A stretch of 64,000 bases of DNA, taken from NCBI RefSeq assembly GCF_000316645.1, contig NC_019684.1:5963501-6027500 (forward strand), read 5' to 3'. Below, in pieces: positions 17,658 to 31,305 of this stretch. The position numbers and the translations under genes were made by a program. Within the stretch, counting starts at the first letter, position 1. Each line of letters begins with the position of its first letter. The stretch is from Nostoc sp. PCC 7524 (GTDB lineage Bacteria > Cyanobacteriota > Cyanobacteriia > Cyanobacteriales > Nostocaceae). The notes under the pieces are model-generated. The model was not told the origin of the DNA. It worked only from the letters and a program-made list of their open reading frames with translations, and ran no database searches.

Positions 17658-17724
17658 GAGTGCCGTTAGCGGTAGCGTGGCGATAAGCCTTCCCAGTCCC
17701 CAGTCCCCTTCCTCATGTAGTTCT

Positions 17725-19227
17725 ATGCTAAGTGCCTTAATTTTTGCCCCTTTATTGGGTGCGCTATTAGTTGGTTTATTTCCTGCTGGCGAGAATGGCA
17801 AAATTTCCCGTGGTATGGCTTTAGTTGTTGCAAGTTTAACTTGCTTGTGGTCAGTGATCATAGCTAGCCAATTCAATCCAGGGGAAGTTAGTCAGCAGTT
17901 TACAGAGTTTCTACCCTGGATAGATGTCTTGGGATTAAACTATAATCTGGGAGTAGATGGCTTATCTCTACCGTTGCTAGTGTTGAATGGATTATTGACT
18001 GGCATAGCCATCTACAGCAGTGATGAATCTCTGCAACGTCCTCGGTTTTATTACTCTTTGATACTGCTGTTAAGTGCTGGAGTATCAGGCGCTTTTCTCG
18101 CCCAGGATTTACTCCTATTTTTCTTATTTTACGAGTTAGAACTAATTCCCCTGTATTTGCTGATTGCGATTTGGGGTGGTGCTAAACGGGGTTATGCAGC
18201 TACAAAATTTCTGATTTACACTGCTGTTTCCGGGATATTAATTCTAGCCAGTTTCCTCGGCTTGGTGTGGTTGAGTGGTGCAGGTAATTTCGCCTTAGCA
18301 ACTTTAAATGCTAAGTCACTACCCTTAGCCACACAATTGCTACTGTTGGGGGGAATTTTAATCGGTTTTGGCATCAAAATGCCCTTAGTTCCTTTGCACA
18401 CTTGGCTACCTGATGCCCACGTTGAAGCTTCGACACCGATTTCTGTGTTGTTGGCGGGTGTATTGTTGAAGTTAGGAACCTATGGCTTGTTACGCTTTGG
18501 GATGAACTTATTACCAGAAGCATGGGGATATTTAGCCCCTTGGTTAGCAGTTTGGGCAGTGGTGAGCGTGTTGTATGGTTCATCTTGTGCGATCGCGCAA
18601 ACTGATATGAAGAAAATGGTAGCCTATAGTTCTATTGGACATATGGGTTATGTATTGCTAGCCGCCGCCGCCGCCACACCATTAAGTACCTTGGGCGCTA
18701 TCATGCAAATGATTAGCCACGGTTTAATTTCGGCTCTCCTGTTTTTATTGGTGGGTGTGGTGTATAAAAAAACTGGTAGCCGTGATTTAAACGTGGTTCG
18801 CGGATTGCTAAACCCAGAACGGGGTATGCCGATGATTGGCAGTTTAATGGTGTTAGGAGTGATGGCTAGTGCTGGAACTCCAGGAATGGTAGGGTTTATT
18901 TCGGAATTTATTGTATTTCGGGGGAGTTTTCCAGTTTTTCCTGTACAAACGCTGTTATCAATGCTGGGTACGGGTTTAACGGCAGTGTATTTCTTGATTC
19001 TGGTTAACCGGGCCTTTTTTGGTCGCTTGTCTGAGCCAGTAATGAACCTACCTAGAGTTTACTGGAGCGATCGCGCCCCGGCAATGATTCTCGCTGCCCT
19101 AATTTTAATTTTCGGTATCCAACCCGCTTGGTTAGTACATTGGACTGAACCAACAGTCACAACTATGGTGAGTGTAGAACATCCGGTTGCTACTGTTTCT
19201 TTAGACCAAATCAAAAGCAAAAGCTAA
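17725..19227 (+). CDS. ndhD4: NDH-1 subunit NdhD4 (CO2-uptake NDH-1MS' complex)
   Basis: NuoM-like proton-pumping membrane subunit of about 500 aa with 14 or so hydrophobic segments. Conserved parts are YELELIPLYLLIAIWG (with the essential Glu), KMPLVPLHTWLPDAHVEA and MKKMVAYSSIGHMG. An earlier GTG at 17677 would add residues encoded by a GTTAGCGGTAGCG/CCCAGTCCC repeat, so the ATG at 17725 (MLSALIFAPLLG) is preferred. It lies 67 bases after ndhF4 in the same operon. Confidence 0.92.
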   Translation: MLSALIFAPLLGALLVGLFPAGENGKISRGMALVVASLTCLWSVIIASQFNPGEVSQQFTEFLPWIDVLGLNYNLGVDGLSLPLLVLNGLLTGIAIYSSDESLQRPRFYYSLILLLSAGVSGAFLAQDLLLFFLFYELELIPLYLLIAIWGGAKRGYAATKFLIYTAVSGILILASFLGLVWLSGAGNFALATLNAKSLPLATQLLLLGGILIGFGIKMPLVPLHTWLPDAHVEASTPISVLLAGVLLKLGTYGLLRFGMNLLPEAWGYLAPWLAVWAVVSVLYGSSCAIAQTDMKKMVAYSSIGHMGYVLLAAAAATPLSTLGAIMQMISHGLISALLFLLVGVVYKKTGSRDLNVVRGLLNPERGMPMIGSLMVLGVMASAGTPGMVGFISEFIVFRGSFPVFPVQTLLSMLGTGLTAVYFLILVNRAFFGRLSEPVMNLPRVYWSDRAPAMILAALILIFGIQPAWLVHWTEPTVTTMVSVEHPVATVSLDQIKSKS

Positions 19228-19400
19228 GAGGGTGTTTGAAAAGTGTTCGGCTGTGACTTTAAGTACATTCAGATCCCCCCTAACCCTCCTTAAAAAGAGG
19301 GGAATAAGAATTAAAGTCCACGGCAGTTGCTTTAAGTCGGCAGAGCCGCCCAACGCACTGCCTCCCCTTTTTAAAGGGGATTTAGGGGGATATAAACTGA
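19228..19400. repeat. Dispersed GATCCCCC-type palindromic repeat, copy A
   Basis: The element starts right after the ndhD4 stop. Near-palindromic outer arms (AGATCCCCCCTAACCCTCC... and ...TTTAGGGGGATAT) enclose a core with CCACGGCAGTTGC and AAGTCGGCAGAGCC. A related copy lies inverted at 63635-63765, sharing the TGTTTGAAAAGTGTT-like edge, the CCCCC arm and the core. It separates ndhD4 from cupB by 278 bases without interrupting the operon's direction. Confidence 0.8.
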
Positions 19401-19505
19401 TTTGATACATCGTTAACGGTAATGAGAATAGCCCAACGATTACCAGTTACCAATTATTAACCAACAATTTAAAAAAATATTTTTATTTTATTTGGAGAAG
19501 CAAAA

Positions 19506-20636
19506 ATGGTCACTCTTAAAAACAAGCAGAAAAACCATCCATTATCCGAGTATATTAAACGCCTACAAACTGGAGAAGCTTTACTGGCAGACAGTCCAGA
19601 AAATGTCTTAGAAGTTGTCGGTATCCTGAAAAGCTACGGGGTAGTTTTAGATGCTTACTCTAAAAATCTTATTTACATAGCAGAAAATCAATTTCTAGTA
19701 TTTTTCCCGTTTTTCAAATATTTTAATGGTGAAATCACCTGGCAAAAATTACTGCGTCATTGGTGGCACGACAGAATTAATTTTGAATATGCCGAGTATT
19801 GCATGAAAGCCATGATGTGGCATGGTGGCGGTGGTTTAGATGCGTATTTAGATACCAAAGAATTTCAACAAAGAGCGCAAGCAGTAATCAAAGCAAAATT
19901 TGCGAACAATCCCTTAGTCATGGGTTTGAATCAACTGTTTCCCGACTTTTTAATTGAACAGTTACGTGTGTCTTCCTACTATAGTGGTTTAGGTCAATTT
20001 TGGCGGGTGATGGCTGATATTTTCCTCAACTTATCAGACCGTTATGACCGGGGTGAAATTCAAACCATTCCTCAAGTTGTAGACCATATTAAAGCCGGTT
20101 TAGTAGCAGATGCCTTAAGACCAATTACTTACGCTGTAAAAATTAACAAAAAAGTCTATGATATTATTCCTAAAAGTTTAGGGTTGACTTTTTTAGCAGA
20201 TACTGCTTTACCCTATGTAGAAGCGGTTTTCTTTAGAGGCACTCCATTTTTGGGAACAGTTTCATATAATGCCCAAGCATATCAAATTCCACCGGATCAA
20301 GCTCGATTCCAGTACGGGGCATTATATGCTGATCCTTTACCCATTGGTGGTGCGGGTATTCCTCCTACCTTGCTCATGCAAGATATGCGCCATTATTTAC
20401 CAGAGTATCTGCATGAAATTTATCGCCGCAGTCCCAGAGGTGAAGATGATTTGCGCGTGCAGATTTGTATGACGTTCCAAAAATCAATGTTTTGTGTGAC
20501 GACAGCCGCGATTTTAGGATTGATGCCTTATCCTGCGGATACACAAGAGCCATCAGAACAGAAAGCCAATCAAATTTATCTAGAAAAATGGATGGATAGA
20601 TTTACAACATCGCGGTTGGTTGATGTTAACAGTTAA
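19506..20636 (+). CDS. cupB: CO2 hydration protein CupB (ChpX)
   Basis: Peripheral subunit, 376 aa, of the NDH-1MS' complex. The Cup proteins are thought to hydrate CO2 to bicarbonate vectorially on the thylakoid, driven by the attached NDH-1 pump. The protein is His/Cys-containing and largely helical, with family features such as RHWWHDRINFEYAEYCMKAMMWHGGGGLDAYLD. GGAG lies 7 bases before the ATG. It follows ndhF4 and ndhD4, the order known for the constitutive, lower-affinity CO2 uptake system. CupA is excluded by the partner genes rather than by a diagnostic residue. Confidence 0.9.
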   Translation: MVTLKNKQKNHPLSEYIKRLQTGEALLADSPENVLEVVGILKSYGVVLDAYSKNLIYIAENQFLVFFPFFKYFNGEITWQKLLRHWWHDRINFEYAEYCMKAMMWHGGGGLDAYLDTKEFQQRAQAVIKAKFANNPLVMGLNQLFPDFLIEQLRVSSYYSGLGQFWRVMADIFLNLSDRYDRGEIQTIPQVVDHIKAGLVADALRPITYAVKINKKVYDIIPKSLGLTFLADTALPYVEAVFFRGTPFLGTVSYNAQAYQIPPDQARFQYGALYADPLPIGGAGIPPTLLMQDMRHYLPEYLHEIYRRSPRGEDDLRVQICMTFQKSMFCVTTAAILGLMPYPADTQEPSEQKANQIYLEKWMDRFTTSRLVDVNS

Positions 20637-20688: not shown

Positions 20689-21546
20689 ATGCAACAAGGT
20701 CGCTATAAAAATCTTCATTTGATTCAGCAACTAGACCCAGTAAACGACCATTGCCAGATTTATCATTGGATGGACGGCTATGAGTTTCCTTGGGACATAA
20801 CGCGTTCCCTGGAAGTTGCACTGATGCGAACTTACTGTATTCCTAGCATTTCTAAATTACTGAATCAAACAGGGGAATTTATTCATCGTCCCCAAAAACG
20901 CTATGATGATACAACTATAATTATGGTTGAGATTGTCAAGTGGGGATATGATAGCGATCGCGGTAAGCAAGCCTTAGAACGGATGAATGCCATCCACCGC
21001 CGCTTCAAGATTGATAACGCTGATTTTCTGTATGTGCTTTCGACTTTTATTTACGAGCCTATCCGGTGGAATGAGCGTTTTGGTTGGCGGTTAATGTGTG
21101 AACAAGAAAAATTAGCCGCTTTTTACTTCTGGTGCGAAGTAGGTAAGCGCATGGATATTCAAAATATCCCCGAAAGCTATGCAGAATTTGAACGCTATAA
21201 CTTAGACTACGAACGCCAAAACTTTCACTATTCAGAGACTAATCGACGTGTGGGGGAAGCAACCCGTGATTTGTTTTTGAGTTGGTTTCCTGGGTGGATG
21301 CGATCGCTCTTAGCGCCCATGATTTATGCTTTACTAGATGATACAATGCTCGATGCTTTTGGCTTTCCCCATCCCTCGCCGTTTCTGCGTTCTACTGTAG
21401 CTAATATTTTGAAATTACGCGCTAGATTACTGCGGTTATTACCACCACGCACTCAGCCAAACTTTTATATTGATTCTCCCATCCGCACCTATCCCAATGG
21501 CTATGAGATAGGGAAGTTAGGGCCAGCAGAAAATATCAGCAGATAA
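20689..21546 (+). CDS. MpaB/DUF2236-family oxygenase-like protein
   Basis: A 285 aa protein of the oxygenase MpaB (latex-clearing-protein-like, DUF2236) family, whose studied members are heme proteins that oxidise or cleave organic substrates. Visible family features are a WNERFGWRLMCEQEKLAAFYFWCEVGKRM helix and a C-terminal TRDLFLSWFPGWMR segment. It starts 52 bases after cupB on the same strand and may share its transcript. No link between this family and CO2 uptake is known to me, so its substrate is open. An overlapping ATG at 20682 is in another frame. Confidence 0.75.
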   Translation: MQQGRYKNLHLIQQLDPVNDHCQIYHWMDGYEFPWDITRSLEVALMRTYCIPSISKLLNQTGEFIHRPQKRYDDTTIIMVEIVKWGYDSDRGKQALERMNAIHRRFKIDNADFLYVLSTFIYEPIRWNERFGWRLMCEQEKLAAFYFWCEVGKRMDIQNIPESYAEFERYNLDYERQNFHYSETNRRVGEATRDLFLSWFPGWMRSLLAPMIYALLDDTMLDAFGFPHPSPFLRSTVANILKLRARLLRLLPPRTQPNFYIDSPIRTYPNGYEIGKLGPAENISR

Positions 21547-21549
21547 TAA

Positions 21550-22314
21550 TTATACATCTGGTTCAACGCCAAGAGCGCGCAATTGAGCAATCAGGCGATC
21601 GCTTCTTTGACGTTCCTGTTCTGCTCGTTGACGTTCCTGTTCTGCTCGTTGACGTTCCTGTTCGGCTCTCTCTTCACCAGTCAGCAACAAATTACCTTGC
21701 AAATCCCACCAACGTAGCCAGGGTAATTCAGCATTTTGATATTCACCCTCCCATATACCTAACTCAACTCCCAAGGGTGTGATAGGATAACGTCCGCGTT
21801 CATTGGCTGATAATAGCTGATATCTACCACCAATTAATTCATAAACTTCTACACTGGCCTTTTTCACTTCATAGATACCGTAAAAAGCCGGATGAATCAC
21901 CTGCTCATAAATCCAAAATTTACCCTTCCAGGGAGTTTTGTCTCGTTCTTCTGTACCATCGCCAGAGACAAATTCCAAAGCAATTGATGGAGCAATAAAC
22001 TCACGCCATAATACATAAGACCTGCGTGTTTGTCCATCAAGTAAAGGCGGGACATTTCCTACGTAAAACCAATCCGGTGCTTCTGCGCCTTTCTCTGGGG
22101 GGTCAGTTAAACGCCAATAAATGCCTAAGTCCTGACCAATACAATATTGACCATCAGGATGTAATTGTTTGAGGACGGGTTGAATTGAGTCCGTCAATAA
22201 AATACTTTGAGGATGTTCTTGCCAATTTTTCACAAAAGTGCCGTCGGACTCTGGTAGCTGCGTATGGTCGGGAAATGGGGTGAGGTCAGTGTCTAGATTA
22301 GTTGCAGAGGTCAT
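21550..22314 (-). CDS. Uma2-family (DUF820) nuclease-like protein, intact copy
   Basis: A 254 aa protein of the Uma2/DUF820 family, a restriction-endonuclease-like PD-(D/E)XK fold that is very abundant in cyanobacteria and of unknown function. The core (about residues 25-200) has SYVLWREFIAPSIALEFVSGDG and GKFWIYEQVIHPAFYGIYEV, in which the spaced acidic residues and Glu-Val would form the catalytic site. The C-terminus is a coiled coil made of three repeats of RAEQERQ followed by LIAQLRALGVEPDV. A second, decayed copy lies at 30572-31305. Confidence 0.85.
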   Translation of the reverse strand: MTSATNLDTDLTPFPDHTQLPESDGTFVKNWQEHPQSILLTDSIQPVLKQLHPDGQYCIGQDLGIYWRLTDPPEKGAEAPDWFYVGNVPPLLDGQTRRSYVLWREFIAPSIALEFVSGDGTEERDKTPWKGKFWIYEQVIHPAFYGIYEVKKASVEVYELIGGRYQLLSANERGRYPITPLGVELGIWEGEYQNAELPWLRWWDLQGNLLLTGEERAEQERQRAEQERQRAEQERQRSDRLIAQLRALGVEPDV

Positions 22315-22432: not shown

Positions 22433-22573
22433 ACGTAAGGAAAACCAACCTACAATTTTTTGCTTTTGACTTCCCCAACGGGGTTGCTAGGTATCAGATT
22501 TATGAAATGTTAATTCTTGCGTGGGGAAGGAGGCTATGATAAACGTTTACAAAATTTCTGGAAGTTTTATATG

Positions 22574-25357
22574 TTAACTTTGACAGGCTTCAACACGAGA
22601 TAAAAAACTCATTACTGTAGTCCACTCCGTCGCAAAATCGATACTATCTCTAATTGTAGGCAAGTGTCCCTTTGGAGCAATTGTACTATAATTTACTTTT
22701 GAACTGTCTATAAACCTGATATTTGTTGGGTCTATCGACCAAATTGCAGACATATTCCAACCCACAATATTACTGAAGCGTTGATAAGCTTTGTAAGCTT
22801 TGTTTATTTCATCTTCCTTATCCCTTACTCTACCACCAAAACGGGTATATATCCATTGGAAGGGAACAAGAACCTTTTTGAAAGGTGAACTTGTTCGACT
22901 TCCTTCTAAAATTCCGCCTACACTGAGATAAATGTCTTTCTGAACACTAAACCCAAAGTGTCCATTGCTGTAATTGACCCATAATTGATCAATAATTCTC
23001 AAATCTTCGCAGGGGAATTCCCGAATGTCTTCTAGTTCCAGAAAGCCATGTTTTTCACTTCCCGCAGCTTCCAACATCACCTGAAATGTTTCCTCGTCCG
23101 CTTCTTTCCATTTACCTGCTGCTAGGTAGTAAGCAAGTTGTGCATAGCGAGTAGGTATTTGAAACCGCAGCAGTTGAATTTTACCATCAGCATTTTGTTC
23201 TGGTTTTAATGCTTGTCTATAACAAATTCCTGGTTCAGCTAATTCTTGGCGACTTCTTAAACTCAACCAAGCACAAAACCGATTAGCATCCCAAAAGCTA
23301 ATATTAGTAACAGGCTGTTGAGCTTGTCTTTTATTGGCTAAGGTACTTGGTGTACTTGTTTCATTGAAAAATAGTTGATATTCTGCCCAAGTTATATAAC
23401 TACTATCAACTGTAATGCTGTCTTGTTCAACATTAATTTCATCCAAGAAATCATGATTTAGCTGACTCATCCTATCAGCAAGTTTAACTTCAGCCGCCAA
23501 AGTAAATTCAGCTAAATTATTAGATGCTAAACCTTGTTCTAATTTAGCTGTTAACTGCTGTTTTACAGAAGGTTCTAGTTCTTGAGCTTCTTTGCTGCAC
23601 TGATAAGCCAGAGCTAATACAGATATATTGGCATGATTAAGAGCATTGGCAATTAATTGGCTAGCATCTGTTTGGGCGGCATAAAATCGAATTGTTTCTC
23701 GCCACCAAGCCAGCTTAGTCTCATCATTAAATGCCTCCAGTAATAAATTCTCTTGTCGAGAGTCTTTGATTTCAACGGCTGCGAAATATTCTTGAAAGGT
23801 TTTATGAGCAAATTCATAAATACCCTCTTGTTGTTTATCACTCAGTAACTCGCGCACGCCTATATCATCTTTTTTAATAAAGTCTTCTGGCGTAATTGTG
23901 ACTTGAGGAAATCTATCTAATTTGTCTTTGATAAGAGACTTCGCCTGTTTGTATGTCTTTTCACGACGGGAAAATTCATCTAAAGTAAATGCTTGGGTAT
24001 TTTGTTGCATTAACTCTAGAGCCAGAGACTTTAAAACAGATTGCTTTTGTTCGGCAGAAAGTAGCGTAGTTTGTCCTTTAACTCGTTGTCTACCTTCTAA
24101 CAATACTCGACAAATTTCTTTATATAAATCTACACGTTTATTAGATAAAGTCTGATGTGGTTCATGGGTGATGGCAATCATATTTAACAATAAAGGATTT
24201 CTTGCCATCAGTTTTAAAGATGAGGATACTTCGATTTGTTCAATGAGATTATTAGCCTGTTTTTTGGCGCGATCTCTGACACCCAAATCTACCTTATTGT
24301 TATATTCTCGTTTAACACGATGAAAATACCAATCTTGAATAAATTTATCTCGTTGTTCACGGATAAATGGCTGTACTTCCAACTGACAGACATTTTGTGT
24401 TAGTGGTGCTTGGCGATAACCTTCTGGGCGAGAAGTGAGAATAAAACAACTATCAGGATATATCCCAATTTGTTTATCAACCCATGCACTCACATTTTGC
24501 CTTTGCTCATCATCTGGAATTTCATCTAGTCCATCCAGCATGACTAAACATTTACTTTCACGCAGGCGTTTAGCAAACCAATTTTTACGCGGTTGCAGAG
24601 GTTCACTAGCTTGGAGTTTTTTAACTGTGTTCTCAATAATTTCTGCTAAAGGTATCTCAGGATTTTGAATTATTTCTTGGTAAATGTCTCGCAATTGCAG
24701 CAAAACCGGAATTAATTTCGGTGCTTTGGGATGTAAACGCCGTTGTTTGCGCGTCGCATACATTAAAATAATGTGTCTAAGGAGAGTAGATTTACCACAA
24801 CCAGGCGCACCTAAAATAGCTAATCTTTTAAAGTAAACATCCCTTTTCATTTGTACTAGCAAGTTACCAATTTCTTGCTGTTCCAGTGGATTAATTAATT
24901 CTCGCGGATAATTAATATCTTGTGGTATTTGTTCCGCTACTTTCTGCGCCATTTTGAGGGGAACAAACACATTTTCTAATTGTAAAGCACCGCGATTAAT
25001 TCCCCGGATTTCATATTCTCGACAGTCAAATTTTAATCTTTGATAATATTTACCTTCAAAATCTGAGGTGAGCTTTGCCCACAAATCCAAAGCTAATCTT
25101 TCAGCATTACTGAATATCCAGTCTAGTAGTTTATCTATGCGTTGATCGATGCGTGGAATGAGTTTTTTAACAAACCAGACAGCAACAGCCGCTACTGCAC
25201 ACAACCCCGCTTTTTTCCATTCCGAGTTGCGGGCGAAATGAACTGCAAGCAAGAGCAAAGCCCCAGAAATACCGAAATTAATCAGTTTGGACTTAACGAG
25301 TTGCTTAACACTTTCCGGCGTTATGGATATGTTTTGGTCTTGTGGGTTTTGTGTCAT
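22574..25357 (-). CDS. NACHT STAND NTPase fused to FGE-like and GUN4 domains
   Basis: A 927 aa protein with an unusual domain order. Residues about 28-66 hold two hydrophobic segments. The NACHT NTPase follows, with Walker A GAPGCGKS (183-190) and Walker B LVMLDGLDEIPDD (about 271-283), then helical winged parts to about 640. Residues about 645-735 resemble a formylglycine-generating-enzyme/SUMF1 domain (SSYITWAEYQLFF, QPVTNISFWDANRFCAWLS, FQIPTRYAQL). Residues about 738-912 are a GUN4 domain (GKWKEADEETF, FPCEDLRIIDQLWVNYSNG, FGFSVQK); GUN4 binds (Mg-)protoporphyrin in chlorophyll synthesis. The whole suggests a membrane-associated, NLR-like signalling or defence switch with a porphyrin-type sensor, which is inference. 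Confidence 0.85.
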   Translation of the reverse strand: MTQNPQDQNISITPESVKQLVKSKLINFGISGALLLLAVHFARNSEWKKAGLCAVAAVAVWFVKKLIPRIDQRIDKLLDWIFSNAERLALDLWAKLTSDFEGKYYQRLKFDCREYEIRGINRGALQLENVFVPLKMAQKVAEQIPQDINYPRELINPLEQQEIGNLLVQMKRDVYFKRLAILGAPGCGKSTLLRHIILMYATRKQRRLHPKAPKLIPVLLQLRDIYQEIIQNPEIPLAEIIENTVKKLQASEPLQPRKNWFAKRLRESKCLVMLDGLDEIPDDEQRQNVSAWVDKQIGIYPDSCFILTSRPEGYRQAPLTQNVCQLEVQPFIREQRDKFIQDWYFHRVKREYNNKVDLGVRDRAKKQANNLIEQIEVSSSLKLMARNPLLLNMIAITHEPHQTLSNKRVDLYKEICRVLLEGRQRVKGQTTLLSAEQKQSVLKSLALELMQQNTQAFTLDEFSRREKTYKQAKSLIKDKLDRFPQVTITPEDFIKKDDIGVRELLSDKQQEGIYEFAHKTFQEYFAAVEIKDSRQENLLLEAFNDETKLAWWRETIRFYAAQTDASQLIANALNHANISVLALAYQCSKEAQELEPSVKQQLTAKLEQGLASNNLAEFTLAAEVKLADRMSQLNHDFLDEINVEQDSITVDSSYITWAEYQLFFNETSTPSTLANKRQAQQPVTNISFWDANRFCAWLSLRSRQELAEPGICYRQALKPEQNADGKIQLLRFQIPTRYAQLAYYLAAGKWKEADEETFQVMLEAAGSEKHGFLELEDIREFPCEDLRIIDQLWVNYSNGHFGFSVQKDIYLSVGGILEGSRTSSPFKKVLVPFQWIYTRFGGRVRDKEDEINKAYKAYQRFSNIVGWNMSAIWSIDPTNIRFIDSSKVNYSTIAPKGHLPTIRDSIDFATEWTTVMSFLSRVEACQS

Positions 25358-25444: not shown

Positions 25445-28400
25445 TCAATCTTGAATGGTATTGTTTGTGAGTAAAAGTTGCTGAATTGTCGCTGCCAGTT
25501 GTTTGAGTTGAACGGGTTTAGCCAGATAGTCAGTTGCTCCAGAGGCCAGACATTTTTCCCGATCGCCTGTCATGGCTAATGCTGTCAGGGCAATAATGGG
25601 TATTGAGGCTAGTTGGTGATTTTGACGAATTTTCTCAATGGCTTGCAGTCCGTTGACTCCTGGCATCTGGATATCCATTAAAATCAAGTCGGGACGATGG
25701 GTTTGGGTAAGATTAATTGCCTCCTCTCCATTGTTCGCTACCAAGATACGATAGCCTTTAGCCTCCAGGTAGCTAGAGATGGTGCTGACATTGGCTTCGT
25801 TATCTTCTGCTAAGAGGATGAGGGGTGGATGGACACTACTGGGGGCGGCGACTACTTCCGGTGGGGCGATCGCTACTGAGTGGGAAGATAAGGGTAAGCT
25901 GAGAGTTGGCCTATCTGCAACTTGACAAGTGTAAGGTAAGCGCACAGTAAAGCAGCTACCCTGATTAAGTTCACTACGAAGGCTGACATCTCCCCCATGT
26001 AGTTCAATGATGCGTTTTACCAGTGCTAACCCCAGCCCTGTACCTTCGTATTTACGGTTGAGGCTGCTGTCAACCTGGACAAAGGGTTGAAATAGTTTGG
26101 CTTGATCGGCGGGAGCAATACCGATGCCTGTATCTATGACGGAAATACAGAGGTAGTAACCGCAGCCAGGAGGACAGTTATCTGGTGTGGGGACGAGATT
26201 CAATAGCCCATGTGAACGAATGATCGGCACGCGCTCTGCTAGGTTAAGTTCCATTGGTTCATAGTGTGCCTCTAGCGTGACCCTACCACCGATAGGGGTA
26301 AACTTAATGGCATTGGTCAAGAGATTGATTAATACTTGCCGGATGCGGCGCTCATCCACAGCGATTTCTCCCAGGTGTGGCGGTAAGGACATATGCAGTT
26401 GAATCTGTTTTTTCAGTGCCTGTTGCCTGACAAAAGTCAAGCTAGATTTGCACAATTGAGAAATAGCAACGGTAGAAATATCCAGTTCCAGTTTACCTGC
26501 TTCAATTTTGGAGATTTCTAGAATGTCGTTAATCAAGCCCAGGAGATGCTCACCACTACGTTCAATGGTGGCGATCGCTTGTTGTTGTCGGTCGTTCAGT
26601 TCACCCAATACCTCCTCCAGTAAGCTCTCAGACATTCCCAGAATCGCATTGAGGGGAGTACGTAGTTCATGGCTCATATTAGCGAGGAACTCATCTTTCA
26701 GGCGGGTAGCGCGGAGCAGTTCAGCATTAGTTCGCTCTAGGCGCTGTTCATATTCTTTGTGAACCCGCATATCTCGCATGATGGTTGAGAAAAATTCTAC
26801 TTTTCCTTGGGGTGATTTATGCGCCAGCAGCAATTGGGAGACGGGAATTTCTTCTCCTTGAGCGTCTAGCAAGACGTTTTCTCCCAGCCAGCTGCCATTG
26901 GCGATCGCACTTGGTACAGCCTGCTGCTCCAGCAATTCTACAGCCCATTGCGGATGATAATCAATGGGTTTTTTCTGGTTGGATGCTACATTACCATCTT
27001 GCCCCCGCATCCGTTTAAGTGATGAATTACTCCAGATGACATTACCCTCTAAGTCTGCAATCAGGATGTAGTCGGTCGAGGCTTCTAGGATGGCAATCAA
27101 GCGATTTTGTTCTTGTTCCAGGCGTTTGCGATCGGTGATATCTGTTAAGGTACCAATATAGCCAATCACTTTACCAGCCGCATCAATTTCCTGCGCCACC
27201 TGCACATAGTACCAATTAATGCTGCCGTCTGGGCGTAGATGCCTACCTTCAGTATGGTTGAGAGTGATGTCTCCTGGAGATGCTTGAATCAATTCTCCAG
27301 ACCATTGGGCGAGCAGCTCATCACGCTCATCTGGATGTAGAGATGCGATCCATCCCTTGCCCAAAGCAGATTCTTTCGGTCTGCCTGTCATTTCGCTCCA
27401 GCGATCATTGACATAGACACAGTTTAAAGGTTGATCAAAGCGGAAAATGGCGACTGGAGCGGCGGCGGCTAAGGTGGCATAACGGCGTTCACTTTCTCGC
27501 AGGGCAGCCTCAGCCAACTTGCGCTGGGTGATGTCGGTTTCAGAACCGCTCATGCGAATTACCTGCCCAGATTCATCGCGCAATGCCTGGGCGCGATCCA
27601 ACACCCACATATAACTACCATCTTTACGTTGAGTGCGATACTCAACTTCAAAAAACTCCGTTCTACCACCAAAGTGGTCGTCAACGGCAGCCATAACGCG
27701 ATCATAGTCATCAGGGTATATGCGGCTTAAGCACTCATCCGGTGAATCACCAATTTCATCGTCGGTGAAGCCGCGCATTTGCTTCCAGCGACTAGAAAAG
27801 AAAATTTTGTGGTTTTTGAGATCCCAGTCCCAAATGGCATCATTTGCTCCCTTCAAGGCTAACTGCCAGCGTTCTTCACTGGCTTGCAGGGCAGCAGTGC
27901 GTTCCTGAACCCGGCGTTCTAAGTCCTGGTTTAATTGCTCCAGAGCTTCTTCAGCCTGCTTAATCGCGGTGAGGTCGTGGGTGCTGACAACAACCCCGGT
28001 AATCTTACCATCTTGTTCAATGTAGGGAGAATAGGTAACTCTGACAAACCGCCGAGCGCCATTTTGATATTCCAACCAAGCTTCATGTTGCTGAATTTCC
28101 CCAGTTAAACACCGTTCCAAGCATGGCTGTACTAAAGTCTCGAAGACGGTTTTACCCAAGAGTTCCTCAACGGAGTGACCAACAATCTCCTCTTGTGATT
28201 TTTCATATCTATCCAGGTAGACATCATTAACTAGCCGATAAACATAGTTGCAATCCAGCAGGGCAATGCCATCGGTAGTAGCAGATACCACCCGCTCATA
28301 CTGACGGAGCATGGACTCAGTGACTTTGCGATCGCTGATATCCGTGAGCATTGCTAATGAGCCGATATAGTTACCGGCATCGTCATACAAAGGATTTGTG

Positions 28401-30166
28401 GAAATCAACGTCCATACATCCCGTCCCGTTTTAGTTTTGAAGCGGAAGTCATGCTGTTCCTGAATCCCCTGACGGCGACGTTCCAAATAAATATGGGCTT
28501 GTACTTGCGCTTCTGTATCCATGAAGTCAAACAGCGTTTTGCCTAGCATCTCGTCTATGGTGTAGCCCAGCATTTCGGACATACGTGGGTTAACGTAGCT
28601 AGTGCAGGTTTGGGTATCAATGATCCAAACCCCTTCCAGAGTCGTCTCAATAATCTTACGAAAGCGTTCCTCACTGGCTCTCAGAGCTGCTTCGGTGCGT
28701 TGGCGTTCTGCTAGTTCGGTTTGCACCTGTTGGTAAGCAGTAGCTTGCTGAATAGCGATCGCTAGTTGTACAGCAATTTCATCCAGCAAAGTCAGATCCG
28801 CCTCTTGCCAACAACGATACTCGGCACACTGATGACCAATCAACAAACCCCACAGTTGACCAGAGACTAAAATAGATACTACTAATTTAGCTTTTACCTG
28901 ATATTCCTCTAACAGGCTTAGGTAACACTCAGGATAGCCATAGGTATAGATATTATCGATGGCGATCATTTTCCCGTCCCGATACAGCACAGCCGCTTGG
29001 TAACGAAAACAGGGATCGTCAATCATATCGTGTAACGATGCTCTGCATCCCTCACCCACGGACTCTGCAACTACGATACCACTCCAATCCGACTGGAACT
29101 GATAGACCAACAGGCGATCGCACTGTAAAAACCCTCTCACTGCGGTCACAGCAGCATCTAAGACTTCTGACAGATTCAGGGAAGCGCGAATCTGGGTGGC
29201 AATTTGAGTCAGTAATTTTTCCCGTGCTACCTGCTTGTGTATCCGGCTGGTGCGTTCCTGCACCAATCGCTCTACCAATCCGTAGATTGCCATCGGGTTG
29301 AGTACACTCAATAACGATGTTTGGGTGACAATGCCCAGCAAATTACCCTCATTGTTGGTAATTACCACCTGATTGATTTGCCGCTCTTGCATTAACTGTT
29401 GAACCACCCACAAAGAGATGTCTGCATTCACAGACACCACGGGCATACTCATGATTGTCTCCGCTATGACGGTGACGAAATCTAGTTCCAAAGATAACAA
29501 CTGCACAATATGCCGTTCAGTAACAATACCAACAGGGATAAGGTGGGTAGCAGTATGATTCACAATGACCACCGAACTGACACGATGGGTGGAAATTAAC
29601 TGAGTGAGTTCGGCTAGCGTCGCAGTTGGTGGAGCATGAACCACAACCTGAGTCATGACATCGGCAGTGGTGATTAAATGTAACAGATCGAACGTGGTCA
29701 ACAGTTGCCGGAGGCTGTCATGGGTGAGCAATCCTACCACTCTGTCCTGTTCATCCACCAAGGGTAAATGACGGATGGGATGGTGCTGAAATAGACTTAG
29801 GGGAACAAAGATATCGGTGAAGTTTGCTGCCTTGAGGGTAATTACCGGGGAAGACATGATATCTGCGATCGCCACCTCTGCCAAATTTAACCCGGCAGCA
29901 CTCAGACGCACCAGATCCCGCTCTGTGACAATCCCTACTGGGCGATCATTTTCTATTACCAATACACAACTACGTCGCGTTTGGGATAGCTGTAGGTGAG
30001 ATGCAGGATCTATCTCACAGATAAAATTGCAAGTGCTACTGCCAGCACTCATCAGAGCAATGGCATCCACCACACAAGCATCTGGAGCGATCGTCAGAGG
30101 GTGAGGGACGATCGCCTTTGCCAGATCAGCTAATGTCAACACGGTTGCAGGGCTAAACATGAGCAA
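25445..30166 (-). CDS. CBS-GAF-multi-PAS hybrid histidine kinase with C-terminal receiver
   Basis: A 1573 aa cytoplasmic sensor. The order is four CBS motifs in two pairs (about 1-300), a CBCR-like GAF (about 320-480), five PAS/PAC units (about 505-1150), HisKA with FLANMSHELRTPLNAILG near 1165, HATPase (about 1275-1395, with GTGLGLALVKRIIE) and a receiver domain (about 1435-1555, with LILMDIQMPGVNG). The GAF has GHQC rather than Cys-His at the bilin site, so it probably lacks a covalent chromophore. CBS pairs often bind adenine nucleotides. It stands alone; the output partner is not in the window. Confidence 0.9.
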   Translation of the reverse strand: MLMFSPATVLTLADLAKAIVPHPLTIAPDACVVDAIALMSAGSSTCNFICEIDPASHLQLSQTRRSCVLVIENDRPVGIVTERDLVRLSAAGLNLAEVAIADIMSSPVITLKAANFTDIFVPLSLFQHHPIRHLPLVDEQDRVVGLLTHDSLRQLLTTFDLLHLITTADVMTQVVVHAPPTATLAELTQLISTHRVSSVVIVNHTATHLIPVGIVTERHIVQLLSLELDFVTVIAETIMSMPVVSVNADISLWVVQQLMQERQINQVVITNNEGNLLGIVTQTSLLSVLNPMAIYGLVERLVQERTSRIHKQVAREKLLTQIATQIRASLNLSEVLDAAVTAVRGFLQCDRLLVYQFQSDWSGIVVAESVGEGCRASLHDMIDDPCFRYQAAVLYRDGKMIAIDNIYTYGYPECYLSLLEEYQVKAKLVVSILVSGQLWGLLIGHQCAEYRCWQEADLTLLDEIAVQLAIAIQQATAYQQVQTELAERQRTEAALRASEERFRKIIETTLEGVWIIDTQTCTSYVNPRMSEMLGYTIDEMLGKTLFDFMDTEAQVQAHIYLERRRQGIQEQHDFRFKTKTGRDVWTLISTNPLYDDAGNYIGSLAMLTDISDRKVTESMLRQYERVVSATTDGIALLDCNYVYRLVNDVYLDRYEKSQEEIVGHSVEELLGKTVFETLVQPCLERCLTGEIQQHEAWLEYQNGARRFVRVTYSPYIEQDGKITGVVVSTHDLTAIKQAEEALEQLNQDLERRVQERTAALQASEERWQLALKGANDAIWDWDLKNHKIFFSSRWKQMRGFTDDEIGDSPDECLSRIYPDDYDRVMAAVDDHFGGRTEFFEVEYRTQRKDGSYMWVLDRAQALRDESGQVIRMSGSETDITQRKLAEAALRESERRYATLAAAAPVAIFRFDQPLNCVYVNDRWSEMTGRPKESALGKGWIASLHPDERDELLAQWSGELIQASPGDITLNHTEGRHLRPDGSINWYYVQVAQEIDAAGKVIGYIGTLTDITDRKRLEQEQNRLIAILEASTDYILIADLEGNVIWSNSSLKRMRGQDGNVASNQKKPIDYHPQWAVELLEQQAVPSAIANGSWLGENVLLDAQGEEIPVSQLLLAHKSPQGKVEFFSTIMRDMRVHKEYEQRLERTNAELLRATRLKDEFLANMSHELRTPLNAILGMSESLLEEVLGELNDRQQQAIATIERSGEHLLGLINDILEISKIEAGKLELDISTVAISQLCKSSLTFVRQQALKKQIQLHMSLPPHLGEIAVDERRIRQVLINLLTNAIKFTPIGGRVTLEAHYEPMELNLAERVPIIRSHGLLNLVPTPDNCPPGCGYYLCISVIDTGIGIAPADQAKLFQPFVQVDSSLNRKYEGTGLGLALVKRIIELHGGDVSLRSELNQGSCFTVRLPYTCQVADRPTLSLPLSSHSVAIAPPEVVAAPSSVHPPLILLAEDNEANVSTISSYLEAKGYRILVANNGEEAINLTQTHRPDLILMDIQMPGVNGLQAIEKIRQNHQLASIPIIALTALAMTGDREKCLASGATDYLAKPVQLKQLAATIQQLLLTNNTIQD

Positions 30167-30571: not shown

Positions 30572-31305
30572 CTGGTTCAACGCCGAGAGCGCAATTGAGC
30601 AATCAGGCGTTCATTTCTTTGACACTCCTGTTCGGCTCGTTGACGTTCCTATTCTGCTCTCTCTTCACCAGTAAACAACAAATTACCTTGCAAATCCCAC
30701 CAACGCAGCCACGGTAATTCCATATTCTGATATTCACCCTGCCAAATACCCAACTCAACACCTAATGGATGTATGGGATAATGACCGCGCTCATTTGCTG
30801 GTAATAATTGATATTGTCCATCAATTAAGTGATAAACTTCCACACTGGCTTTATTGACTTCATAAATTCCGTAAAAAGCTGGATGAATTACCTGCTCATA
30901 TATCCAAAATTTACCCTTCCAAGGAGTTTTGTCTCGTTCCTCCGTACCATCGCCAGAAACAAATTCTAAAGCAATTAATGGGGAAATAAACTCGCGCCAC
31001 AGCACATAAGACCGACGTGTTTGTCCATCCAGCAAGGGCGGTACATTTCCTACATAAAACCAATCCGGTGCTTCCGCGCCTTTTTCTGGGGGATCAGTCA
31101 TCCGCCAGTAAATACCGCTATCTTGACCTATGCAGTATTGTCCATCAGGATGGCGTTTTTGTAATACGGGTTTAATCGAGTCAGTGAGTAGAATGCTTTG
31201 GGGATGTTCCTGAAAGTTCTTCACGAAAGTACCATCGGACTCTGGTAGCTGCGTATGGTCGGGAAATGGGGTGAGGTCAGCGTCTAGATTGGTTGCAGAG
31301 GTCAT
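30572..31305 (-). pseudogene. Uma2-family (DUF820) gene, copy with a broken C-terminus
   Basis: A close paralogue of the gene at 21550-22314, on the same strand. The first 218 residues are intact and include the whole nuclease-like core. The coiled-coil tail is then broken twice: a TAG (30651-30649) replaces the CAG that follows RAE in the intact copy, and further on two bases of the GCGCGC run are missing, which would break the frame before LGVEPxV. Recognisable homology continues to about 30572. The core may still be made as a truncated protein (31305-30649). About 45 bases upstream of the start are also conserved between copies, so the promoter was duplicated too. Confidence 0.8.

Follow-up and report, generated by a model that had tools for sequence, protein, structure and literature searches.

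Organization of the locus

The window, that is the whole stretch of 64,000 nucleotides analysed, contains a minus-strand gene in which a NACHT NTPase and a GUN4 domain are fused in one frame (Table 1), as an earlier note on this DNA had proposed. Both domains scored above their Pfam cut-offs, and the GUN4 domain that the note had placed at residues 738–912 gave a significant match of 109.9 bits and has the Gun4 fold. The Walker A and B motifs are both in place and the membrane segments that had been noted correspond to two hydrophobic stretches in the hydropathy profile. The FGE/SUMF1-like unit of the note shrank to a fragment, as the FGE-sulfatase profile reached 21.2 bits over 36 residues against a cut-off of 23.3 bits. 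From its sequence, the gene can fairly be read as encoding an NLR-like (STAND) switch that is tethered to the membrane, resembles the immune receptors of plants and animals and uses the GUN4 fold as sensor scaffold. The note's layout, a STAND switch whose C-terminal sensor is GUN4, is thereby kept, while its tetrapyrrole reading is weakened as the ligand-binding end is absent.

Table 1. Features of the NACHT-GUN4 gene and its immediate surroundings (window positions)
Feature	Position	Strand	Basis
NACHT-GUN4 ORF, whole gene, 927 aa	22574..25357	(-)	ORF list and Pfam profiles
Two hydrophobic stretches, residues 24–68, likely 2-TM membrane anchor	25154..25288	(-)	Hydropathy
NACHT NTPase, residues 179–344; Walker A 183–191, Walker B 271–279	24326..24823	(-)	Pfam, 53.8 bits
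FGE-like fragment, residues 648–735, kept among NACHT relatives	23153..23416	(-)	Pfam match at 666–701 only, below cut-off
GUN4 core, residues 736–900, last motif GHLP	22658..23152	(-)	Pfam, Gun4 fold
Hypervariable stretch, 54–55 nt, from GHLP to the element; replaces LxNxLR and the canonical last helix	22604..22657	(-)	
Copy of the 118-nt element, decayed, across the stop codon; 76–82% identity to consensus	22485..22603	(-)	
Uma2-family gene	21550..22314	(-)	Pfam and neighbour comparison

Upstream of the gene lies a 1573-aa hybrid histidine kinase (25445–30166, minus strand) with four CBS stretches, a GAF, several PAS domains and a response regulator. The kinase and NACHT-GUN4 genes are bracketed by two Uma2-family sequences, the one in Table 1 and another at 30667–31305, with 90.6% identity over 213 aa. 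On the other side, an ndhD-like subunit gene (recognised by eye) and a ChpX/Y CO2 hydration protein (17677–20636, plus strand) are followed by an MPAB/Lcp oxygenase-like gene (20689–21546).

NACHT relatives and their C-terminal modules

The search for further STAND-GUN4 fusions suggested by the note yielded a whole family of NACHT-GUN4 relatives. Those found in 59 genomes include L008 in the congener G001, which matches over its full length with 85% identity, and L009, with 46% over residues 13–904. A two-pattern scan of named genomes gave 272 relatives. Classified with our own profile and tail patterns, the best 80 of these comprise 36 with a GUN4 ending, 16 in which GUN4 or what remains of it precedes an FGE-type end, 10 with an FGE-like ending and no GUN4, and 18 that are truncated or of another kind. 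Since relatives end in GUN4, in GUN4 plus FGE or in FGE, they suggest one membrane-NACHT chassis with exchangeable C-terminal modules.

In L071, L074, L086, L091, L100, L107 and L111 the FGE end that follows NACHT and GUN4 or its remnant is of the GFRVVC type, as in the targets of diversity-generating retroelements (DGRs); such proteins hold two kinds of variable module in a single chain. Among other GUN4 proteins, a kinase (L049) has two tandem GUN4 matches and one host GUN4 gene (L005) carries an N-terminal domain that by eye resembles an LRAT/NC papain-like fold. Two relatives (L118 and L122) lie on contigs labelled as Syntrophomonadaceae and Rhodothermia MAGs, which would reflect misbinning or transfer.

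The GUN4 ending and the lost ligand motif

Canonical Gun4 continues after GHLP with LxNxLR and then its last helix. The window gene instead reads TIRDSIDF, so that all four LxNxLR positions are mismatched and none of the four residues expected of a functional, bilin-binding Gun4 is present. Of the full GUN4 domain with FGFSVQK described in the note, the fold, FGFSVQK and GHLP stand, and completeness is lost together with LxNxLR. The motif L.N.LRG occurs in 30 of 129 distinct GUN4 ORFs, all of them short (139–331 aa), and is absent from the other 99, which include every NACHT fusion of this set; the canonical and non-canonical classes used below are defined by the motif itself. In the predicted model, the tail loop (250–275) had pLDDT values of 51–58 and the helix that follows (276–292) values of 88–89, which describe a single tail and are not informative on others.

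These observations bear on the proposal of the earlier note that GUN4 reads a tetrapyrrole and signals the photosynthetic state to the NACHT switch. The GUN4 fold is conserved, and excerpts of PMC7159879 already interpret the GUN4 of cyanobacterial conflict systems as sensing tetrapyrroles; GUN4 likewise appears in excerpts of PMC8195603. As LxNxLR, the bilin-proximal motif of Gun4 (PMC10156173, in excerpt), is lost and the last segment is replaced by variable sequence, tetrapyrrole sensing by the window GUN4 is weakened, and it is improbable as the main function. Porphyrin binding could persist, since an Asn-to-Gly change in Gun4 abolished bilin binding and left porphyrin binding in place (same excerpt). 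Most fused GUN4 genes that carry the DNA element described below have a hypervariable tail where LxNxLR would be. This suggests that the recognition surface is diversified and is not a single conserved pocket, and a GUN4 annotation on fusion proteins does not have to imply chlorophyll sensing.

A PADLOC match to PD-T4-6 was rejected as evidence for defence. The model, PDLC04062 (kinase-plus-GUN4), was matched via its C-terminal GUN4 part; the same model gives canonical Gun4 114.7 bits and accordingly flags it as a defence protein.

A conserved element follows non-canonical GUN4

Three protein tails recur after the variable stretch, LFSRVETCKL, SSLASRLVNCNI and LLSRRDL. They proved to be three readings, one per frame, of the same DNA, a conserved element of 118 nt that sets in before the stop codon and extends roughly 90 nt beyond it. 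In most copies the stop codon comes 26, 33 or 19 nt after the element begins, corresponding to three frames, each of which is closed by a stop within the element. It was found at 61 of the 99 non-canonical GUN4 ORFs versus 0 of the 30 canonical ones, in 31 of the 59 genomes of relatives and in at least 82 of 388 genomes of the class, a lower bound as two candidates were scored per genome. Its left edge often carries a small hairpin, of which at least three different sequences occur. At least four pairs are formed in 74 of 112 copies, versus 11 after shuffling and 12–40 in other windows of the element.

GUN4 lies within 900 nt upstream of 109 of the 112 distinct copies, and a free-standing mobile element was for this reason rejected. 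The exceptions, L240, L267 and L248, are perhaps truncated or decayed; one of them sits after the start of a kinase-like gene, as though the middle had been deleted. Rfam gave no match for the four element loci scanned, and the exact pattern CTCTCGCGYMGAGACTTGTARA gave 0 matches in IMG/VR. The element is also present on three Nostoc plasmid records, next to genes annotated as WD-40 or AAA-like that all have GUN4 by our own profile (95–117 bits). On plasmid1 of Nostoc sp. HK-01 (L314), the ATPase-GUN4 gene and element are followed by a gene for an NspV-like restriction enzyme and then, after one hypothetical gene, by a TIR-protein gene.

The stretch between GHLP and the element is hypervariable

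The stretch that separates GHLP from the element spans 15–153 nt and is often G/T-rich. Because gapped global alignment of G/T-rich pairs yields partial matches (e.g. L227–L228), stretches were compared by a shuffle test of local similarity against shuffled letters, drawing on 118 distinct copies from all sets. Fifty pairs have at least 85% identity in the 330 nt upstream. In none of them was the stretch similar at p≤0.01, and in 2 it was at p≤0.05, which is about chance level; the last 60 nt before it were similar (p≤0.01) in 48 of the same pairs. The element was at least 85% identical in 34 of the 50 and less so in 16; in an earlier list the corresponding numbers were 30 and 10 among the 40 pairs listed. 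Identities upstream and in the element were, for example, 92.6% and 98.3% for L056/L133, 91.3% and 95.9% for L051/L052, and 91.5% and 96.6% for L246/L270, which share one genome. Pairs from other genomes, a set from which four loci without the GHLP pattern were left out, gave 95.4% and 98% (L369/L371) and 91.7% and 95% (L399/L405). Based on these comparisons, we are highly confident that targeted hypervariation of GUN4 3' ends is real.

Stretches were cut by a GHLP DNA pattern, which left 83 of the 112 copies usable for pair identities, 77 for composition and 64 for frame and stops, the rest being dropped, and 27 of 46 loci of a newly fetched set adjacent to RAYT transposase genes (described below). 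An in-frame stop interrupts 2 of 64 stretches, whereas the two alternative frames are interrupted in 40 and 42 (p 4.5e-18); in the second set the numbers are 1 of 27 versus 5 and 12 (p 0.004). Given this depletion relative to other frames of the same DNA, the tails are, by sequence comparison, kept open in the GUN4 frame. Stop codons are scarce in every frame of A-poor DNA, and together with the three-frame stops of the element this would amount to a design that tolerates random tail lengths.

A G+T content above 0.70 was found in 28 of 77 stretches versus 0 of 333 control windows of 60 nt from the same genes, and in 20 of the 27 RAYT-adjacent stretches. Several RAYT-adjacent stretches of Nostoc are not G/T-rich (L053 0.44, L056 0.48, L133 0.33). 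An unconstrained linker in neutral drift could be suspected from the window copy, as it adjoins a decayed element, but conserved flanks around a dissimilar middle, a composition unlike that of the gene and the depletion of in-frame stops leave this reading next to no probability.

To find a donor or template, 15 stretches were searched in their own 7 genomes, at a sensitivity that would miss copies shorter than about 25 nt. All 15 returned themselves and the next best match had an E value of 0.03. Gene conversion from silent cassettes and template copying were rejected on this account, and the lack of a donor together with variable length speaks against both a DGR and silent-cassette conversion. 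A DGR would reverse-transcribe a template repeat with adenine mutagenesis, and such elements are known from excerpts of PMC7517822 to diversify the C-terminal CLec/FGE domains of cyanobacterial signalling proteins. Against this origin, the search detected no near-identical, template-like second copy, the stretches vary in length where a DGR variable region has a fixed one with substitutions at template adenines, related tails are dissimilar, and element copies almost never occur without GUN4. Inspection by eye of the 14 largest ORF families at 108 element loci revealed no reverse transcriptase. We consider a DGR origin of the GUN4 tails highly improbable.

A RAYT transposase lies convergent to GUN4

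Clustering of ORFs around the 108 element loci surfaced a Y1/RAYT gene. It was present in 18 of these loci, 151–804 nt past the element and convergent in all 18, and the one RAYT protein scanned matched Pfam Y1_Tnp (E 3.7e-19). The gene was then viewed from its own side at 80 fetched places, 64 of a near and 16 of a more distant sister subfamily, leaving out fragments and a few others (e.g. G073, G114, G234:C24 and G356). In 58 of the 64 near copies a single ORF contains both the HUH (NHVH) and the Tyr (Y.NP) motif. GUN4 is convergent within 1.2 kb in 49 of these 64, and in no other orientation, versus 0 of 16 in the sister subfamily. As nine of the 64 have less than 1 kb of flank on the GUN4 side, the fraction is 49 of 55 where the flank suffices; GUN4 is absent beside the remaining 6. 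Two full-length RAYT genes (L291, L292) have neither GUN4 nor element. The spacing between RAYT and GUN4 is similar across copies (378–1027 nt). In 9 of 50 the RAYT reading frame terminates within the element, and the median gap is 12 nt beyond it.

The linkage can be explained in two ways. RAYT may be a mobile hitchhiker that prefers the GUN4 3' end, the hypervariable tails being made by other repair or replication processes or as scars of imprecise IS excision. This would fit the several genomes in which elements and diverse tails occur and no RAYT was found, as well as the partial copies of their own flanks inside the stretches of L052, L075, L078, L080 and L115. Searches for RAYT found none in the window genome, none in G001, which has a different tail from the window gene, and none in G010, G016 and G023 despite 4–6 element copies in each of these three. 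Co-occurrence was weak among the 59 relatives' genomes, with the element in 11 of 16 with RAYT versus 20 of 43 without. A hitchhiker is however less readily reconciled with the restriction to one subfamily, one orientation and a similar spacing in 49 of 64 copies, or with tails that are kept open in frame. We regard it as the unlikelier explanation, albeit one with a real share of the probability, and find it somewhat probable from gene arrangement that RAYT is part of the tail-making mechanism. Where it is missing, RAYT may act intermittently and then be lost, or may be a passenger.

The window copy illustrates such an absence. Compared with L008, 252 of 291 positions are identical upstream and 94 of 121 in the element, and the middle gave p 0.56. 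Divergence from G001 starts near position 22800, some 140 nt before the stretch, identity per 60-nt bin being 0.87–1.00 from 25080 to 22861 and 0.69–0.89 below. At L056 and L317 the order is GUN4, RAYT, Uma2; in the window GUN4 is followed after about 260 nt by Uma2, and RAYT is absent. With its element decayed and no RAYT found in the genome, the window tail is probably an old copy that is no longer renewed. A second trace of the element in the window genome follows a kinase-GUN4 gene whose stretch has a G+T content of 0.80.

Proposed mechanism

Building on what the comparisons gave, i.e. hypervariation, openness, the element and the RAYT linkage, we infer the following sequence of events. 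RAYT would nick single-stranded DNA at the hairpin on the element edge, TCT/TCTCTCGCG, and leave a 3'-OH on the GUN4 side. This end would be extended without a genomic template, which would account for G/T-rich sequence and for flank copies made by slippage. Its rejoining to the element would create junctional diversity comparable to CDR3. The tail would occupy the place of canonical Gun4's ligand loop and last helix on the GUN4 scaffold, so that its renewal would change what the module recognises. Engagement would then lead to NACHT oligomerisation, with the membrane anchor as putative effector. To our knowledge, untemplated synthesis is not among the activities of HUH enzymes, and we know of no immune phenotype for NACHT-GUN4 proteins.

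RAYT-driven tail renewal on an NLR-like GUN4 sensor is, as a whole, the best explanation we can offer, and we lean slightly towards it. That the tail serves recognition is rather likely; for an immune role of NACHT-GUN4 proteins we see even chances. More tentatively, and somewhat short of even, the system could be somatic-like or act at the population level: RAYT would open GUN4 3' ends, and STAND-type receptors, among them NLR-like proteins and kinases, would receive untemplated, G/T-rich, CDR3-like tails in whichever frame results. It would stand beside DGRs and V(D)J junctional diversity as a counterpart that needs no template.

Comparison with known systems

In its effector-NACHT-sensor layout the window gene resembles the bNACHT anti-phage proteins, which are bacterial NLR-related proteins with an N-terminal effector, NACHT and a C-terminal sensor; it differs in its 2-TM anchor and hypervariable-tailed GUN4. 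With V(D)J junctional diversity, taken as an analogy, the tails share random length and frame at a fixed junction, whereas neither segment recombination nor a TdT homologue is in evidence. Canonical Gun4, the Mg-chelatase cofactor, has the same fold, FGFSVQK and GHLP, but in the window gene LxNxLR and the C-terminal segment are lost or replaced and NACHT takes the place of the N-terminal helical domain. The RAYT gene shares the Y1_Tnp profile and the NHVH and Y.NP motifs with RAYT/TnpA_REP (class 2 Y1 HUH) proteins; here it is convergent to hypervariable GUN4 3' ends, a role absent from the excerpts of PMC6006769.

No paper on a GUN4-RAYT link or on GUN4 tail hypervariation was found in a search that covered neither preprints nor most subscription papers and included excerpts of PMC7159879, PMC8195603, PMC10156173, PMC2853523, PMC7517822 and PMC6006769. 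The differing tails, together with the adjoining transposase-like gene that may replace them, hint at a bacterial way of diversifying a recognition surface that has so far gone undescribed.

The closest parallel is found in the DGRs of cyanobacteria, which diversify CLec/FGE domains fused to kinases, caspases, vWA and others (PMC7517822, in excerpt); DGR-diversified lectin-like or FGE modules in STAND-linked proteins are likewise described (excerpts of PMC7159879 and PMC7517822). Both systems combine 3'-end hypervariation of a ligand-binding domain with signalling or STAND modules, and FGE-ended sisters share the NACHT chassis of the window gene. The GUN4 tails differ in that no template was found, in variable length, three frames and an adjoining RAYT, and in that GUN4 is not a C-type lectin. 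If the proposal is true, they would represent a new class of targeted mutagenesis, its template undetected, tied to an HUH transposase and acting on a different fold from DGR targets. A RAYT subfamily would thereby gain a job, and cyanobacteria a second route of hypervariation beside DGRs on NLR-like receptors.
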